From: a virus
Length of the DNA stretch: 20,428 bases
IMG/VR virus record: IMGVR_UViG_3300030101_002662
Span: 1 to 20,428 of that record
Direction: 5' to 3' (one strand)
In this document: piece by piece, positions 1-20,107 of the stretch
How positions within the stretch are numbered: the stretch's first letter is position 1
Layout of the letters: each line of letters begins with the position of its first letter
Notes under the pieces: model-generated
What the model saw: the letters and a program-made list of their open reading frames with translations, nothing else
The model's database searches: none
Told to the model about the DNA's origin: nothing
Translations under genes and position numbers: made by a program

Positions 1-69
1 TTAACAGATAATTGGGATGAAGTTTTAGAATTTGTAAATAACTATGGAGGTAAAAATGCAAATAAATAA
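1..69 (+). CDS. C-terminal end of a small phage protein (partial)
   Basis: Frame 1 is open from the first base to a TAA at 67-69 and gives the last 22 residues of a protein that begins before the window. The visible tail ends in Gly-Gly-Lys-Asn-Ala-Asn-Lys and has no recognisable motif. Its last 14 bases overlap the next gene, whose ribosome binding site lies inside this coding sequence. That tight stop/start coupling matches the rest of the cluster and supports it being a real gene. No function can be assigned. Confidence 0.55.
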   Translation, partial: LTDNWDEVLEFVNNYGGKNANK

Positions 70-1665: not shown

Positions 1666-1854
1666 ATGAATACAGTAAAAGAAGCTAAAGACGATTTAGT
1701 AAAGTTTGTTGAAAATGAAAGAGATACTTCTCGTCTTTATAGTAGACTACTTGCTTTGTATGAGTCTAAAACTATTATAACTAAAGAACTGCAAAAAAAG
1801 ATAGATGCTACTGAAAAAGAATTGTTGGCGAAAGGCGAAAAACTTGACCTATAA
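1666..1854 (+). CDS. Hypothetical small helical phage protein, 62 aa
   Basis: The start is at 1666 and not at the in-frame ATG at 1648, because AAAGGAGGTG at 1651-1660 is a near-perfect Shine-Dalgarno five bases upstream of 1666. The product is almost entirely predicted helix, rich in Lys and Glu, with heptad-like Leu/Val spacing. It could be a coiled-coil dimer. It is the last gene before the terminator at 1935-1975. A promoter -35 box (1844-1849) lies in its last codons, so the gene end doubles as the start of the small-RNA cassette. Function unknown. Confidence 0.75.
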   Translation: MNTVKEAKDDLVKFVENERDTSRLYSRLLALYESKTIITKELQKKIDATEKELLAKGEKLDL

Positions 1855-1873
1855 TTCTTTAATATGTTATAAG
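1844..1873 (+). promoter_or_regulatory. Sigma-70-type promoter for the candidate small RNA
   Basis: TTGACC at 1844-1849 is followed by an 18-base spacer and TATAAG at 1868-1873, with TG at 1865-1866 making an extended -10. Transcription would begin near 1878-1881, almost exactly where the 5' strand of the RNA stem begins. Boxes and spacing are seen directly; activity is inferred. Confidence 0.6.
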
Positions 1874-1876
1874 AAT

Positions 1877-1975
1877 ACTATCTGCAAACCTCCATGTAAA
1901 ATTTTGTCTTAATTTACACTTTGTAGATAGTCTGAAGAGCCGAGATTTCATCCAAATATTCTCGGCTCTTTTTTT
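1877..1975 (+). ncRNA. Candidate phage small RNA exposing an anti-Shine-Dalgarno CCUCC
   Basis: This is a non-coding stretch bounded by a promoter (1844-1873) and an intrinsic terminator. A 12-bp stem pairs 1877-1888 with 1920-1931, with one G-U pair. Inside it, 1895-1900 pairs with 1913-1918. Between the two stems lies an asymmetric internal loop with CCUCCA at 1889-1894, the complement of GGAGG. A three-base linker then leads into the terminator hairpin. The predicted transcript is about 97 nt. Small RNAs with CCUCC or UCCC loops that block ribosome binding sites are established in Alphaproteobacteria and Firmicutes; that role here is inference. A structured leader or attenuator of the downstream gene is the alternative. 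Confidence 0.55.
1935..1975 (+). terminator. Rho-independent terminator
   Basis: A perfect 11-bp stem, AAGAGCCGAGA at 1935-1945 with TCTCGGCTCTT at 1960-1970, encloses a 14-base loop. It runs into a T tract ending at 1975. It ends the candidate small RNA and would also end read-through from the small-gene operon upstream. It is the clearest terminator in the window. Confidence 0.92.
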
Positions 1976-1985
1976 ATCTTTTTAC

Positions 1986-2013
1986 TTGTGTCCCAAGTAG
2001 TTTCATATATAAT
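1986..2013 (+). promoter_or_regulatory. Candidate sigma-70-type promoter
   Basis: A consensus TATAAT at 2008-2013 lies 16 bases after a weak -35-like TTGTGT (1986-1991). It falls directly after the terminator and about 35 bases before the next gene start, where a restarted transcript is expected. The poor -35 match leaves room for an activator or for chance in AT-rich DNA. Confidence 0.5.
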
Positions 2014-2047
2014 TAAGATAAGACTAAAATTTACAATGGAGAATAAT

Positions 2048-3556: not shown

Positions 3557-3766
3557 ATGTCACACTTTAAATTATCAAAAAATGAGATAGACTTATTCGT
3601 AAGAAGTATGAAATCTTATAGAAAAAAATTAGATGAGGATCACCCGAATGACTATCCATATGTGCATCCGATATCAAAAGAAAAAAGATATTTGGATTTA
3701 ACAATTGGTAAACTGGAGAATGAACTTAAAACAAGATCAATGCGACCACATAAGGTAACATCATGA
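3557..3766 (+). CDS. Hypothetical small basic phage protein, 69 aa
   Basis: Starts immediately after the previous stop, with AAAGGT at 3544-3549 as ribosome binding site, and ends in an ATGA overlap with the methyltransferase start. It is rich in Lys and Arg and probably helical at both ends, with a Pro-Tyr rich turn (HPNDYPYVHP, residues about 29-38) between them. No known domain. Because it is translationally linked to the methyltransferase it may be co-expressed, but nothing shows a shared function. Confidence 0.75.
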   Translation: MSHFKLSKNEIDLFVRSMKSYRKKLDEDHPNDYPYVHPISKEKRYLDLTIGKLENELKTRSMRPHKVTS

Positions 3767-4734
3767 AACTTAGACACTTTGATGTCTGCTCGGGAATCGG
3801 GGGTTTTGCCCTCGGTTTTCGTTGGGCAGCACTTTCAGAACCTGTGGCTTTTTGTGAGATAGACCCGTATTGTCAAAAGGTTTTAGCAAAAAATTTCCCG
3901 AATATCCCGATATTTAATGACGTAAAGGAGTTAGTCAATGAAAAAACCAAACCCGAATCAACCCGAACTATTCCCGACCACGACATCCTCACCGCTGGAT
4001 ACCCATGTCAGCCGTTCAGCGTGGCGGGCAAACGGAGAGGCGAGGAAGATCCGAGAAACATCTGGCCTTACGTGTATGAGATTGTTAAAAGAAAACACCC
4101 CACTTGGTGTGTTTTCGAGAACGTTTATGGTCACGTTGCCATGGGACTCGACAAGGTGCTTAACGAAATGGAAATGGAAGGGTACACCACACAAACGTTT
4201 ATTGTTCCAGCTTGTAGCCTTGATGCACCCCACCTCCGTAATAGACTCTGGATTATTGCACACTCCAACCGCCAAAGCGAATCAACTAGCACCAAGTATG
4301 GTGGAGAGGGACAAGGGGAGTTGGGGCATGTGGCCAACACCCCAAGCACGGGATTGGAAAGACAGTCTGAACACAGTCCCTCCATCAGTTGCAGCGGGGA
4401 GAAGAGGAGCGAGTCTAGGTCAAAAACTAGCCGAGAGAATGCTATGGCCGACACCCAATGCATGGGACGGGAGCCGAGGTCCGAGGAGCGAGAAGAATTT
4501 ACAGGAGAAGAATCACATGGTGAATCTGATCACCGCAGTTCAAACGGATCAGAGGAGGAACGAGCAAGAAACTGGTGGCAGTTTGAACCCAACGTGGGTC
4601 GAGTGGCTTATGGGGTATCCTCAAGGGTGGACAGACTTAGAGGATTAGGAAATGCAATTGTCCCACAAATAGCAATGCAAATAGGACTATCAATAAAGGA
4701 GGCAGTTGAATATGGAAGCAGAAAAAAAGATTAG
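3763..4734 (+). CDS. dcm: DNA (cytosine-5)-methyltransferase, Dcm type
   Basis: This enzyme would transfer a methyl group from S-adenosylmethionine to C5 of cytosine in a specific DNA sequence. Motif I, FDVCSGIGGFALGF, spans residues 6-19. Motif IV, GYPCQPFS, carries the catalytic Cys82; motif VI has Glu-Asn-Val at 119-121; and a motif VIII-like LRNRLW is at 158-163. Motifs IX-X end in RVDRLRGLGNAIVPQIA. At 323 residues it has a usual length for small phage enzymes. Residues about 170-275, where the target-recognition domain belongs, are low in hydrophobics and rich in Ser, Glu and Arg. This part coincides with a second gene in the +1 frame. No restriction partner is visible, so a protective or orphan role is likely. 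The DNA is markedly more GC-rich than its surroundings. Confidence 0.93.
   Translation: MKLRHFDVCSGIGGFALGFRWAALSEPVAFCEIDPYCQKVLAKNFPNIPIFNDVKELVNEKTKPESTRTIPDHDILTAGYPCQPFSVAGKRRGEEDPRNIWPYVYEIVKRKHPTWCVFENVYGHVAMGLDKVLNEMEMEGYTTQTFIVPACSLDAPHLRNRLWIIAHSNRQSESTSTKYGGEGQGELGHVANTPSTGLERQSEHSPSISCSGEKRSESRSKTSRENAMADTQCMGREPRSEEREEFTGEESHGESDHRSSNGSEEERARNWWQFEPNVGRVAYGVSSRVDRLRGLGNAIVPQIAMQIGLSIKEAVEYGSRKKD
3924..3930 (+). promoter_or_regulatory. Internal Shine-Dalgarno for the nested gene
   Basis: AAAGGAG lies inside the methyltransferase coding sequence exactly seven bases before the ATG at 3938 in the +1 frame. The same motif and spacing precede the genes starting at 10003 and 12250. It supports independent translation of the nested frame. 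Confidence 0.7.
3938..4648 (+). CDS. Nested +1-frame gene inside the methyltransferase, 236 aa
   Basis: This frame lies wholly inside the methyltransferase gene yet has its own Shine-Dalgarno (3924-3930) and family-like motifs. Three Pro-Thr-Pro modules appear: HTPTA at residues 108-112, WPTPQARDWKD at 132-142 and WPTPNAWDG at 170-178. A C-terminal block, LNPTWVEWLMGYPQGW, follows at 216-231. A central stretch (SRTFMVTLPWDSTRCLTKWK) matches the style of phage proteins I remember ending in NPxWVEWLMGxPxGW, usually near cytosine methyltransferase genes and sometimes themselves labelled methyltransferase. Its own biochemical function is unknown. In the alternative frame, low GC-related stop density could leave a long frame by chance, but the motifs and start signal argue for a translated protein. 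Confidence 0.72.
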   Translation: MKKPNPNQPELFPTTTSSPLDTHVSRSAWRANGEARKIRETSGLTCMRLLKENTPLGVFSRTFMVTLPWDSTRCLTKWKWKGTPHKRLLFQLVALMHPTSVIDSGLLHTPTAKANQLAPSMVERDKGSWGMWPTPQARDWKDSLNTVPPSVAAGRRGASLGQKLAERMLWPTPNAWDGSRGPRSEKNLQEKNHMVNLITAVQTDQRRNEQETGGSLNPTWVEWLMGYPQGWTDLED

Positions 4735-4867: not shown

Positions 4868-5096
4868 TTTAAGAAATCCAAATTCTTTGGTTTATAAATG
4901 TTCTAAAATTTCAATTTTAGTGCAAAGAGTTAATTACAAAAAAAAGGCTGATTATGATTTTTTTGTAGAGAAGTTGTGTGAGGAAAACGACATAACTGTT
5001 AAACAATTTAAAGATTATGAAAAACAATATTGGGAAAATATAAATAAAGTTAAGGAGGGAGTATTTAATGTTCAAAGCGATAACTTTGATGTGTAG
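4854..5096 (+). CDS. Hypothetical small phage protein, 80 aa
   Basis: The start at 4854 is chosen because GGGAGG at 4839-4844 precedes it by nine bases. The longer in-frame start at 4767 would cover most of the zinc-ribbon gene and has no ribosome binding site. The product is charged, Lys- and Glu-rich and probably helical (YDFFVEKLCEENDITVKQF in its middle). It overlaps the zinc-ribbon gene by 14 bases and the next gene by 29 bases. Function unknown. Confidence 0.72.
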   Translation: MSLDDLRNPNSLVYKCSKISILVQRVNYKKKADYDFFVEKLCEENDITVKQFKDYEKQYWENINKVKEGVFNVQSDNFDV

Positions 5097-5268
5097 CATT
5101 TGGTTTATTAATGGAGAACCAAAACAATCATGCTTCACACATATGTTTAGTTGGGAGTTCCAAACAAAAGAGGAATGTCAATTTAAAATTTTAAATTACT
5201 CAAGATTTGAAATACCAAAGAATCATAAGATTATTTTATCTGAGTGTGTATTGGCCAAGAAATCATAG
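5068..5268 (+). CDS. Four-cysteine small protein, tandem copy 1, 66 aa
   Basis: Preceded by AAGGAGGGA at 5052-5060, seven bases before the ATG. The N-terminus MFKAITLMCSIWF is hydrophobic but short, and there is no convincing signal-peptidase or lipobox site (the residue before Cys9 is Met). Cysteines at 9, 22, 37 and 60 are in the same positions in the next gene. That even spacing suggests either two disulfides in an exported protein or a metal site. The two proteins share about 53% identity over their first 60 residues (my count, 32 of 60), so this is a tandem duplication. Function unknown. Confidence 0.8.
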   Translation: MFKAITLMCSIWFINGEPKQSCFTHMFSWEFQTKEECQFKILNYSRFEIPKNHKIILSECVLAKKS

Positions 5269-5278
5269 GGGAGTATAA

Positions 5279-5494
5279 ATGTTTAAAGCATTAGCACTTG
5301 TATGTAGTGTATGGATTGCAGACGGAAGAGCCAAACAAGAATGTTTTACCCATAAGTTTAAGTGGGAGTTTGAAACTAAGAAAGAATGTCAGATGCGATT
5401 GATTTACTATCAAGCAAAAGAATTACCACATTATCAAAAGATGGTATTAAGTGAGTGTACAAAATTTACTCATCGTTATCGTGATCGTAAATAA
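5279..5494 (+). CDS. Four-cysteine small protein, tandem copy 2, 71 aa
   Basis: Paralog of the gene just upstream, with identical positions for cysteines 9, 22, 37 and 60 and shared blocks such as CFTH, WEF, KxEC and LSEC. The N-terminal MFKALALVCSVW is again hydrophobic. The C-terminal tail is longer and basic (HRYRDRK). AGGGGAG at 5267-5273 is the ribosome binding site. Its last 29 bases overlap, tail to tail, a small gene on the opposite strand (5466-5630). Both copies have stayed open while diverging, which implies both are used. Function unknown. Confidence 0.8.
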   Translation: MFKALALVCSVWIADGRAKQECFTHKFKWEFETKKECQMRLIYYQAKELPHYQKMVLSECTKFTHRYRDRK

Positions 5495-10245: not shown

Positions 10246-11755
10246 GGAGTTAATATTCGGACCACCAGGGTGTGGCAAGACTCATACATTGATTGATCTT
10301 GTCAAAGATGAATTGAGTAAAGGCACCCCACCCGATAGAATAGGTTTCGTATCTTTTTCTAAGAAGTCTATAGGAGAAGCAAAGGAACGTATATCGGAAC
10401 AAACAAAACTATCACTCAAGGATGTTCCGTGGTTCAAGACTCTTCATTCAACGGGATATCATTGGCTTGGCCTAGGCGACTCTAACATGCTGACACGAGC
10501 AGACTTTACGAACCTAGGCAATGAGCTTGGTATTATCTTTGATGGTAATACTGCAAAATCAAATAGTGATGGTGTGTTGCTACAATCGTTTAACAAAGGT
10601 AATCAGTATCTTGAATTGATTGGCCGTGCCAACATGAGAGAAGTATCATTAGATCAAGAGTATAATGACAATGGCGATTATCAACTAAGCTATTCTTTCT
10701 TGAACAAAGTCGATAAGGTCTACAAGGCATACAAGAAACAGTATGAGAAGTATGACTTTACAGACATGATACAATACTTTGTTAAGCAAGGCAGTGCACC
10801 ATTACTTGATGTATTGATTGTAGATGAGGCACAGGATCTTACAAAGTTGCAATGGTCTATGGTCAATGTACTCAAACAATCAGCAAATAGAATTTATTAT
10901 GCGGGAGATGACGATCAAGCGATACATGTGTGGAATGGTGTTGATGTGAAAAATTTCATGAGATCATGTGAAAACATCCGCATACTTGATCAGAGTTATC
11001 GTGTACCAAGATCCGTACATGAGATAGCCAATCGCCTTGTGAATAGAATAGAAGTAAGACAGGCAAAAAGTTGGAAACCTACAGAGCGTGAGGGTTCTGT
11101 GGATTATCATATGAATTGGTATGATGTAGATATCGATAAAGGGTCATGGACGATCATGGCAAGAACAAACAATATTGTGAACAAGATAGAAGTTAATCTT
11201 CGTGACAATGGTTATTTATATGAAAGATTTGGTAAAATTTCATTAGAAAATGAATTTATTCAGTTTATGAATATGTGGGAGGAACTTAAAAAAGACAAGA
11301 GTTTACCTCTCGAGACAATTAAACAGTTTTATAGTTACGTGCCAAAGCAAGGCAAGAACCAAGTTGTAAAAAGAGGTTCAGCAAAAACGTTAGAGTATTT
11401 AGATCCACAAAGCAGTTTATGTTATGACGAGCTAGTGGCCAATCATGGGTTAGTCGCACCTAAATCAATGAGAGGAGAAGATGTAGTTAATATGTCAGAG
11501 GACGATCAGAGATACAAGGCAGCGATACTACGAAGGGGGGAGGATTTGGAGAACCCTCGTATTAAATTATCAACAATACATCAGATGAAAGGCGGAGAGG
11601 ACGACAACATTATATTGATGTCAGAGTCATGCCATCCTGCAGTTAATGCAAAGAATCAAGATGATGAGCATCGTGTATTTTATACGGGGGTCACAAGAGC
11701 CAAACATAATTTACACATCATTGATTCATTCGGGAGGTATAGATACGTGATATGA
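10238..11755 (+). CDS. UvrD/Rep-family (SF1A) DNA helicase, 505 aa
   Basis: A 3'-5' helicase family by sequence. Walker A GPPGCGKT is at residues 8-15 and Walker B VDEAQD at 195-200. Then follow AGDDDQAIHVWNG (motif III), LDQSYRVP (motif IV), LSTIHQMKGGEDD (motif V) and YTGVTRAK (motif VI) close to the C-terminus. The start at 10238 puts Walker A at the N-terminus, as in the family; an in-frame ATG at 10127 would add residues encoded within the AlpA-like gene and is rejected. No strong ribosome binding site precedes 10238, so coupling through the eight-base overlap is likely. At about 505 residues it is short for UvrD, lacking the long 2B insertions. A replicative or recombination role is inferred. 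Confidence 0.92.
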   Translation: MHEELIFGPPGCGKTHTLIDLVKDELSKGTPPDRIGFVSFSKKSIGEAKERISEQTKLSLKDVPWFKTLHSTGYHWLGLGDSNMLTRADFTNLGNELGIIFDGNTAKSNSDGVLLQSFNKGNQYLELIGRANMREVSLDQEYNDNGDYQLSYSFLNKVDKVYKAYKKQYEKYDFTDMIQYFVKQGSAPLLDVLIVDEAQDLTKLQWSMVNVLKQSANRIYYAGDDDQAIHVWNGVDVKNFMRSCENIRILDQSYRVPRSVHEIANRLVNRIEVRQAKSWKPTEREGSVDYHMNWYDVDIDKGSWTIMARTNNIVNKIEVNLRDNGYLYERFGKISLENEFIQFMNMWEELKKDKSLPLETIKQFYSYVPKQGKNQVVKRGSAKTLEYLDPQSSLCYDELVANHGLVAPKSMRGEDVVNMSEDDQRYKAAILRRGEDLENPRIKLSTIHQMKGGEDDNIILMSESCHPAVNAKNQDDEHRVFYTGVTRAKHNLHIIDSFGRYRYVI

Positions 11756-18133: not shown

Positions 18134-20107
18134 TTAACCTAATAAAAGTTTGTTTAGTTTATCTTTATCAAACTTACCGCCTTGAAAAAACTCACTGAGT
18201 TTTATTGTCTTTTGTCCTTGTCCTTGAGCACTTGCTCTTGCACCTGGACCAGCAATGCCTAAGTTTGCTATTTCTGCAAATTTAACAGGTGCTCCACTTT
18301 GAAAAGTTTGTCCTTGTGTTGCCACTAAAATATTTTCGATTTGTGCTAAAGATTTTTGTTGAGTTCTCTCCATAGTTTTATGAACACCTTGTAGTCTACT
18401 CAATAAAACATCATCATCTCTAAATACATAACCGCCTAACAATCCACCGCTACCCGTTGTAAAAAGTCCAACAATTTCTTGTGCCAATTGTCTATCAACG
18501 TTTGAAATATTTTTTGATCCTTCACCAAGTAAATCTTTAATTAATTGATTAGCAACTTTTCTCATATCAGCGTTGTATCGTTCAAGACTTTCATACTTAG
18601 TGCCCATATCAATACCAACAGCATTAGCTGCTTTGTTAACGATATTTTGAGCAGCGGGTGCTAAACCAGTTACATTGCCATCAGCAACTTGAAATATTTG
18701 TCCTTGTATAAGTGTCTGTAAATTTCTTGATTTAGTGAAAGTATCTGTTGCGTCAGTAACTTGTTTACCTAAAGAAATAAAATCTTTGTTTGATATTATT
18801 TTATCTTTCTGTGCTTTGGCAAGAGCTTTTTTAATTGCAGCGGCATTGTCTAGAGTTGCCTTTGTTAAGCTTTCTGTTGTAAGGCCAGATGGTATGCCAT
18901 TTTTTCTTATGAATCCTTCAGATAAATCAACAACGCTACCTTTTTCATAATTTTTACCATCAATCGTTACATCTTTACCCGCAATAAAATATTTAAGTTT
19001 TCTATCCTTAGAGCGTTCTTGTAGGCCATATCTTAATGCAGCTAGATCAACCTGTCTGTTAAAAGCATCTCTTTCTTTTTTATCTTTTAAAAACATATCT
19101 GCACCTTTATTAAGGCCATCAGCAATGTTAGTTATGGCATCTGGATCTTTACCCGCAGCAATAGAAAAGAATACTTTTGCTAAAGCGATATTTTTGTCCA
19201 TGCCCTCATACTCTGGTGCATTCTGTTTGAACTCACTCATAAGTTGTTTGAGCTCTGATTGTTGTTCTTCTTGAGAGCCAGTAGTGATTAATTTTTCTAC
19301 ATCTTCTTTTGTTGTTGGCTTGGGAACAACTTTATCATCTATTGTTGTGCCATCTTTTTTGGTCTTGACTTTATCATCTTTTTTATCATCACCTGTGCCC
19401 TTACCTACAAATGCTTTTTCATCATCAAGTTGTTTAGCTAACGCATCGGTTGATTGTTTTACATCAAATGGAACTGTGTCAAATGATAAATCATCTTGTG
19501 TTTCTGGAAATGGTTTCGGACCTTTTGAACCTTCTGGAATAATTTTTGTTATTTTACCAGGGATCATACCTATTGGTCTTTTGAATTTCTCATAACCCTC
19601 TATGTTCGTCACACGAGGTATTTTTGTTTGATCAACTCCAGTTAAGTCAATATTACCGCCACCTTCTTCTAATTCTTTTTTAACACCAGGTGTCATACCA
19701 CTAAAAGGTTTAAAAATATTTAAAAGATTTGCAACGCCTTGAGCAGTTTTATCGGCACCTGTTGCAATACCCTTTCCTATTGAACTTGCAATGAATCCAC
19801 CAGGACTAGTTGCAGTTTCTGGACTAAATAAACTTGCAAGACCCTCTGGATATTTAGGTCTTTTAAGTCTATTTCTAGCTATTTGTTTTACTTGTTCTCC
19901 CGTTAAATTAATAGTTGGATTATTACCAGATTGTCTACCTGCAATAAAAGACCTGTTAGGTTGAAAATATTTAGATCGTGGATTAGTAGAAAATATATTT
20001 GGATTAGCTACAACAGGACCGCCTAGTTGAAAACTAGCAATACCACCCATAGTATTTAATCTATTACGAGCGTTTCGATTAAACATTTTTCGGTTCATTA
20101 CACTCAT
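18134..20107 (-). CDS. Virion structural protein of unknown detail, 657 aa
   Basis: Starts in an ATGA overlap with the preceding minus-strand gene. The N-terminus is basic and Asn/Arg-rich (NRKMFNRNARNRLNTMGGI), followed by a Gly-Pro-rich unordered region. A Lys/Asp linker lies at about 236-262. After it a helical domain contains FSIAAGKDPDAITNIADGLN and AALRYGLQE, strings I associate with marine phage structural proteins. A C-terminal helical part follows. No membrane segment or enzyme motif. The order virion genes then lysozyme supports a role in the virion, perhaps an internal or tail-associated protein; the exact part is unknown. Confidence 0.78.
   Translation of the reverse strand: MSVMNRKMFNRNARNRLNTMGGIASFQLGGPVVANPNIFSTNPRSKYFQPNRSFIAGRQSGNNPTINLTGEQVKQIARNRLKRPKYPEGLASLFSPETATSPGGFIASSIGKGIATGADKTAQGVANLLNIFKPFSGMTPGVKKELEEGGGNIDLTGVDQTKIPRVTNIEGYEKFKRPIGMIPGKITKIIPEGSKGPKPFPETQDDLSFDTVPFDVKQSTDALAKQLDDEKAFVGKGTGDDKKDDKVKTKKDGTTIDDKVVPKPTTKEDVEKLITTGSQEEQQSELKQLMSEFKQNAPEYEGMDKNIALAKVFFSIAAGKDPDAITNIADGLNKGADMFLKDKKERDAFNRQVDLAALRYGLQERSKDRKLKYFIAGKDVTIDGKNYEKGSVVDLSEGFIRKNGIPSGLTTESLTKATLDNAAAIKKALAKAQKDKIISNKDFISLGKQVTDATDTFTKSRNLQTLIQGQIFQVADGNVTGLAPAAQNIVNKAANAVGIDMGTKYESLERYNADMRKVANQLIKDLLGEGSKNISNVDRQLAQEIVGLFTTGSGGLLGGYVFRDDDVLLSRLQGVHKTMERTQQKSLAQIENILVATQGQTFQSGAPVKFAEIANLGIAGPGARASAQGQGQKTIKLSEFFQGGKFDKDKLNKLLLG

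Follow-up and report, generated by a model that had tools for sequence, protein, structure and literature searches.

Phage antisense RNAs acting at the start of translation are represented by c4 of P1/P7 and sar of P22, which, according to the relevant part of PMC12197685, block the translation start of the ant mRNA, c4 having complementary loops around the ribosome binding site. In the same part of that paper, lambda OOP RNA is listed (in a table) as 77 nt long; a single phage gene is described as the target for each of c4, sar, OOP, aQ, and 24B_1, and a wider effect on phage and host mRNA levels for VpdS. Among bacterial RNAs, the alpha-r14/NfeR1 CCUCCUCCC RNAs of Alphaproteobacteria carry an unpaired anti-Shine-Dalgarno (anti-SD) motif and have many predicted mRNA targets, as described in sections of PMC10746234.

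The RNA considered here lies in a 20,428-base virus record, which was analyzed at its full length and is further referred to as the window. It likely is a trans-acting phage antisense RNA covering the SD sites in the leaders of several promoter-proximal phage genes. As with c4 and sar, a loop complementary to the ribosome binding site of a phage mRNA is found, and the RNA would be a phage-encoded antisense acting at translation start, here predicted from sequence; in contrast to the one phage mRNA described for each of those in PMC12197685, several leaders, all belonging to the phage that encodes the RNA, are predicted here. It would resemble lambda OOP as a small phage RNA acting on phage mRNA (PMC12197685, in the part cited above), but OOP is cis-encoded against one gene, whereas this RNA is encoded apart from its predicted targets. 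It shares the unpaired anti-SD motif and many predicted targets with the alpha-r14 RNAs, which, in the cited sections of PMC10746234, have three hairpins each with CCUCCUCCC; here, a single hairpin carrying a single (C/U)CUCCAUGUAA loop is followed by a terminator, the predicted pairing extends far beyond the SD, and both the RNA and its predicted targets belong to a phage. The original prediction had likened the loop to those of the CCUCCUCCC RNAs of Alphaproteobacteria and of RsaE/RoxS, and the RNA is a member of neither alpha-r14 nor RsaE/RoxS: the window RNA has no Rfam match at the gathering level, RsaE/RoxS is not among its 17 matches up to E = 10, and the c4 antisense RNA family is not among its Rfam matches.

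Architecture of the RNA gene

The gap between the end of the upstream gene (1854) and the start of the downstream gene (2048) holds a promoter, a stem-loop, and a terminator. The features of the locus and its predicted targets in the window are as follows.

1844..1849, + strand: -35 element TTGACC, within the final codons of the gene upstream (sequence)
1865..1873, + strand: extended -10, TGT-TATAAG, at an 18-nt spacer from TTGACC (sequence)
1877..1931, + strand: RNA stem-loop domain with its outer arms at 1877-1888 and 1920-1931 (fold)
1889..1912, + strand: putative antisense segment CCUCCAUGUAAAAUUUUGUCUUAA, comprising the open CCUCCA loop, the 5' inner arm, and the apical loop with UUGUC (1904-1908)
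1934..1975, + strand: intrinsic terminator with U tract (fold), three pairs changed on both sides among relatives
1986..2013, + strand: TTGTGT-16-TATAAT, a promoter of its own for the downstream gene (sequence)
2020..2041, + strand: AAGACTAAAATTTACAATGGAG, the leader ahead of the gene at 2048 and a predicted target, with a duplex of -19.9 kcal/mol with the window RNA
44..51, + strand: possible target, AUGGAGGU ahead of the gene at 56, an 8-nt complement of ACCUCCAU

The sigma-70 promoter (TTGACC, 18 nt, extended -10 TATAAG) is present as originally placed; it had been missed by an automatic promoter scan because the scan demands T at the sixth -10 position, and the terminator had been missed because its loop is longer than 8 nt. 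The predicted 12-bp stem, CCUCCA internal loop, and inner stem were recovered by folding the window RNA, with MFE of -32.2 vs. -11.9 ± 2.6 in 200 shuffles (z = -7.8, no shuffle as low): the outer stem has 12 pairs, including one G–U, CCUCCA (1889-1894) is unpaired, and the inner stem is formed by 1895-1900/1913-1918. The terminator, too, was found, with 12 pairs (1934-1945/1960-1971; U tract 1969-1975) rather than the 11 originally given. The CCUCC/UCUCC loop is open, with an unpaired probability near 1, and opening the stretch from the loop to UUGUC costs 1.4–3.0 kcal/mol. A tRNA search of the region found none.

Positions 1877-1975 appear to encode a small non-coding RNA of ~97 nt, presumably transcribed from its own sigma-70-type promoter and ended at its terminator. 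The locus shows the features expected of an independent sRNA gene of the bacterial type: a promoter and intrinsic terminator of its own, a conserved fold, and no conserved reading frame.

Conservation among related phages

Homologues of the RNA were found in 11 further IMG/VR contigs, which gives, together with the window, 12 contigs and nine distinct RNA sequences. These form two clades: clade 1 comprises the window and L003, and clade 2, all other RNA-bearing contigs. L003 was picked up by a DNA pattern; in the helicase relatives L017, L021, L022, L023, and L025, the RNA was seen by aligning the gap; and L114, L117, L121, L123, and L131 were added by a promoter-plus-loop pattern. Among 11 helicase relatives at 81–83% identity, five extend to the locus, all five carrying the RNA, and the other six (L018, L019, L020, L024, L026, L027) end short of it and are uninformative, as are L179–L181, judged by spacing in L021. 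TTGACC is identical in 12/12 contigs, five of which came only from the pattern requiring CTTGACC and five via the helicase without that requirement. In clade 2, the -10 element, read by eye, is TATAAC, TAAAAG, or TAAAAA at 17-nt spacing, and the site of the downstream-gene promoter has TTGTAC...TATAAT.

A scan with the AAACCTCC..GTAA pattern gave 14 stretches, with the RNA in L003 only; the promoter-plus-loop pattern gave 32, 11 with the RNA and 21 that were chance or coding matches, judging from their contexts; the loop-only pattern gave 39, with ten known members and, by eye, no new one; and inspection of ten stretches from genome contigs found the RNA in none. A search from the downstream gene yielded one locus, whose displayed start is without such an RNA. 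Phage BLAST with the L017 region hit mainly staphylococcal phages over 23–26% of the query, from the terminator onward, which was taken as chance.

A covariance model trained on clade 2 RNAs (five sequences, none from clade 1) detects the window RNA at E = 2.1e-8 within the window. In a search of 100 sources totalling 1.14 Mb, the window RNA was detected at E = 1.2e-6, and the model matched 12/12 contigs and nothing else below E = 0.1. Weak matches in L104/L105 (E = 0.12), L177 (a terminator-like stem), and L179 (at or beside coding sequence) were dropped, and no convincing match was seen in L098–L107, which have a homologue of the gene at 1454. Separately, HTVC023P (L177) has at 10660-10760 a gap with possible inverted repeats beside a terminator-like stem.

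Covariation analysis of related phages, suggested as a check in the original prediction, supports the structure. Since MAFFT misaligned the 3' arm between the clades, a model-fitted alignment was used; in this alignment, which leans towards the structure, 243/243 pair cells of the nine distinct sequences are standard, and five pairs carry changes in both partners: three in the terminator and two, differing between the clades, in the outer stem. None of 500 shuffles equalled the covariation score, and sliding the pair partners gave 33–50% pairing, as opposed to 243/243 in the true register. L025 and L117 have gained an extra A–U pair in the outer stem through matched insertions. Variation is confined to other parts such as the stems, (C/U)CUCCAUGUAA in the internal loop and UUGUC in the apical loop being invariant in 9/9 distinct sequences. 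Loss of the stem or of CCUCC had been named as evidence against the RNA: the stem is kept throughout, and so is CCUCC, except for UCUCC in L022, L023, and L121. A conserved reading frame, named likewise, is not seen among the relatives, where the RNA stretches span 92–106 nt with indels not in threes. By these comparisons, the RNA structure is under selection.

For both the helicase and the DNA polymerase of the window, the closest counterparts (45–54% identity) are in phage 023Pt_psg01, Phage DSL-LC04, and pelagiphages HTVC023P/HTVC027P, and a 657-aa protein at 18134-20107 had no match in the same comparison. A single literature search on pelagiphage small RNAs found no relevant report in the library used, and the main text of a pelagiphage transcriptome paper (PMC12753301) is without the words sRNA, noncoding, or antisense. 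As to other genes of the window, a 236-aa frame (3938-4648, +) is completely contained in the gene for a cytosine methyltransferase (3763-4734), which is read in a different frame. The 236-aa frame matches PHROG 1008 (E = 1e-28) as well as 64 phage records, and in 54 of these the match spans 80% or more of the frame; it is apparently a conserved overprinted gene. Adjacent small genes at 5068-5268 and 5279-5494 (+) have similar N-termini (MFKA...) and probably arose by tandem duplication.

Complementarity to phage leaders

Several phage genes have 5' leaders to which the conserved loops CUCCAUGUAA and UUGUC are jointly antisense, e.g., UGACAAUUACAUG-(G)AGG, and the complementarity extends past the SD into UUACAUGGAG, often joined to GACAA. 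The loop complement of clade 1 reads UUAAGACAAAAUUUUACAUGGAGG, and that of most clade 2 members, UUUGACAAUUACAUGGAGG; whole or in part, it is present, among others, in leaders of L003 (AAGACAAAATTAAACATGGAG, AATTTTACATGGAG) and L121 (TGACAATTACATGAGG), and at three genes of L021 (TTACATGGAG). The strongest RNA–leader duplexes reach -24 kcal/mol. In the window, the leader at 2020..2041 ranks second, behind only the RNA's own antisense strand, and the 43-nt start region of the gene at 56 forms a duplex of -20.1.

With crude gene calls made for this analysis, and in contigs related to one another, starts pairing at -17 kcal/mol or below were found in 6/52 gene families of clade 1 and 10/94 of clade 2, the latter scored with the L017-type RNA throughout; shuffles keeping ACCTCC gave on average 1.2 and 0.7 families, respectively, and 0/300 reached the observed numbers. 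Related phages without the RNA have 1/80 and 3/80 such families (for two RNA versions). Distant, GC-richer relatives also score strongly (13/323 and 18/323), which counts against the antisense reading. Exact complements of at least 9 nt are found in 4/52 families of clade 1, a weak signal reached by 12/200 shuffles, and in 12/94 of clade 2, a strong one reached by 0/200.

Over six genomes, 19 of the 30 top-five duplex sites fall at predicted starts, the 12 shuffles per genome summing to 5.3 on average. Taken alone, the window has one of five top sites at a start, no better than shuffles; L003 has five of five, matched by at least one of its 12 shuffles, and several of its target leaders lie past the point in L003 that corresponds to the left end of the window. 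The target signal is not evident in the window by itself but is in its relatives.

Not counting the RNA gene, the 166 kb of RNA-bearing sequence contain 21 copies of ACATGGAG. There is none in 84 kb of L098–L107, a weak control in which several contigs are near-identical and the operator discussed below is also lacking; distant relatives have 32 copies in 801 kb, and two named phage stretches, two copies in 30 kb. The SD is preceded by AT (AT-GGAG) at 60/173 GGAG starts with the RNA vs. 11/111 (relatives in which no RNA was found) and 36/611, counts that include related contigs; by family, ATGGAG has 13/52 and 13/94 vs. 6/80 and 23/323. The 16S tail would favour AA-GGAG.

One orthologous gene allows us to compare the RNA and its leader across the clades. 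It encodes a 221-aa protein beginning with MLTTT, with weak similarity to GP88 below the Pfam cut-off. Its leader reads GAC-AAAATTAAAA-CATGAGG in L003 (clade 1) and GAC-AATTA-CATGAGG in L121 (clade 2), and the RNA complements are GAC-AAAATTTTA-CATGGAGG in clade 1 and GAC-AATTA-CATGGAG in clade 2. The duplex with the RNA of its own clade is -21.2 in L003 and -23.1 in L121, compared with -11.5 and -16.2 for the RNA of the other clade. Judging from these sequences, the RNA and the leader have changed length together in this gene. Other clade 2 genes show little or no discrimination, the longer clade 1 RNA pairing about as well with many of them.

Operator-like sites and the probable role of the RNA

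The site TACTACATANGACA lies at the start site of several promoters (L021 15320, 17596, 19734, and 19991; L003 5136; also L114, L117, L131, and others), so that many leaders begin with it, and is inverted upstream in other promoters. Because of these inverted occurrences, it looks like a protein operator, to which a phage repressor might bind. The operator-like leader part ACTACATANGACA could conserve GACAA for a reason other than RNA pairing, and the RNA complement loosely resembles the operator end. The RNA gene might then be an inverted copy of an operator-leader or share a protein operator with it, the complementarity reflecting descent or DNA binding instead of RNA pairing. We consider this unlikely: the operator may explain GACAA but not UUACAUGGAG, which persists in leaders with the operator upstream (L021 17216, L114 3909), and the paired changes that hold the RNA structure and the joint change of spacer length in RNA and leader also speak against it. 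By eye, the RNA's own promoter has no TACTACATANGACA site; therefore, the timing of the RNA may differ from that of its targets.

Alternatively, the RNA could be a general anti-SD RNA, the loop of which blocks any host or phage GGAGG site or titrates ribosomes, as would suit the open CCUCC/UCUCC and the frequency of GGAG at window starts. The original prediction placed GGAGG at nearly every gene; this was overstated, GGAGG being found at 7/31 and GGAG at 21/31 window starts by the crude gene calls. A purely general action seems quite improbable, as the conservation extends beyond CCUCC into AUGUAA and UUGUC, the signal is lost in the controls keeping ACCTCC, and the three relatives with the weaker SD complement UCUCC still hold CAUGUAAUUGUC. 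Of the role originally proposed, an independent phage RNA that exposes a conserved anti-SD loop and probably targets genes of the phage is retained, but a general block of GGAGG sites or of host translation is not, given the longer, specific complementarity concentrated at certain phage leaders. Finally, the position between genes and the terminator at the end would also fit an attenuator or leader belonging to the downstream gene, or merely the terminator and 3' UTR of the upstream operon, which is highly improbable, since another promoter follows the RNA and the cassette from TTGACC to the terminator is kept while the upstream genes vary among the relatives and the downstream genes differ between the window and L003.

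In the favoured reading, the exposed loops resemble antisense of the start regions of several phage genes, so that the RNA would probably switch these genes off post-transcriptionally. We infer transcription of the RNA, its pairing in the cell, repression, and its timing from the sequence, repression being the suggested direction because the predicted pairing covers the SD. The antisense segment would comprise 20–25 nt within the internal and apical loops. Once transcribed from its own promoter, the RNA would make the first contact with the leader SD through the open CCUCCA loop; the weak inner hairpin of 4–6 bp would melt, and the RNA would zip along the leader toward the leader 5' end, forming a duplex of 15–25 bp. 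This duplex would exclude the ribosome and perhaps also be exposed to RNase, so that a set of phage genes would be shut down or balanced after transcription.

A bolder reading, which we regard as possible but doubtful, makes this one RNA an antisense master switch of a phage regulon, pairing with near-full leaders (from the transcription start to the SD) of about ten promoter-proximal families that share the start-site operator; the RNA would probably have arisen by inversion of an operator-leader and then coevolved with its targets. If one trans-acting RNA matches many leaders in the phage that encodes it, it would do post-transcriptionally what a phage repressor does, and its covariation with the targets would be directly testable in uncultured marine phages.

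An unrelated ribosome-site hairpin was seen in clostridial contigs L168, L170, L173, and L174, where CCTCCATGTAA is followed by its complement TTACATGGAGG (TTACATGGAAG in L173) before the start codon.
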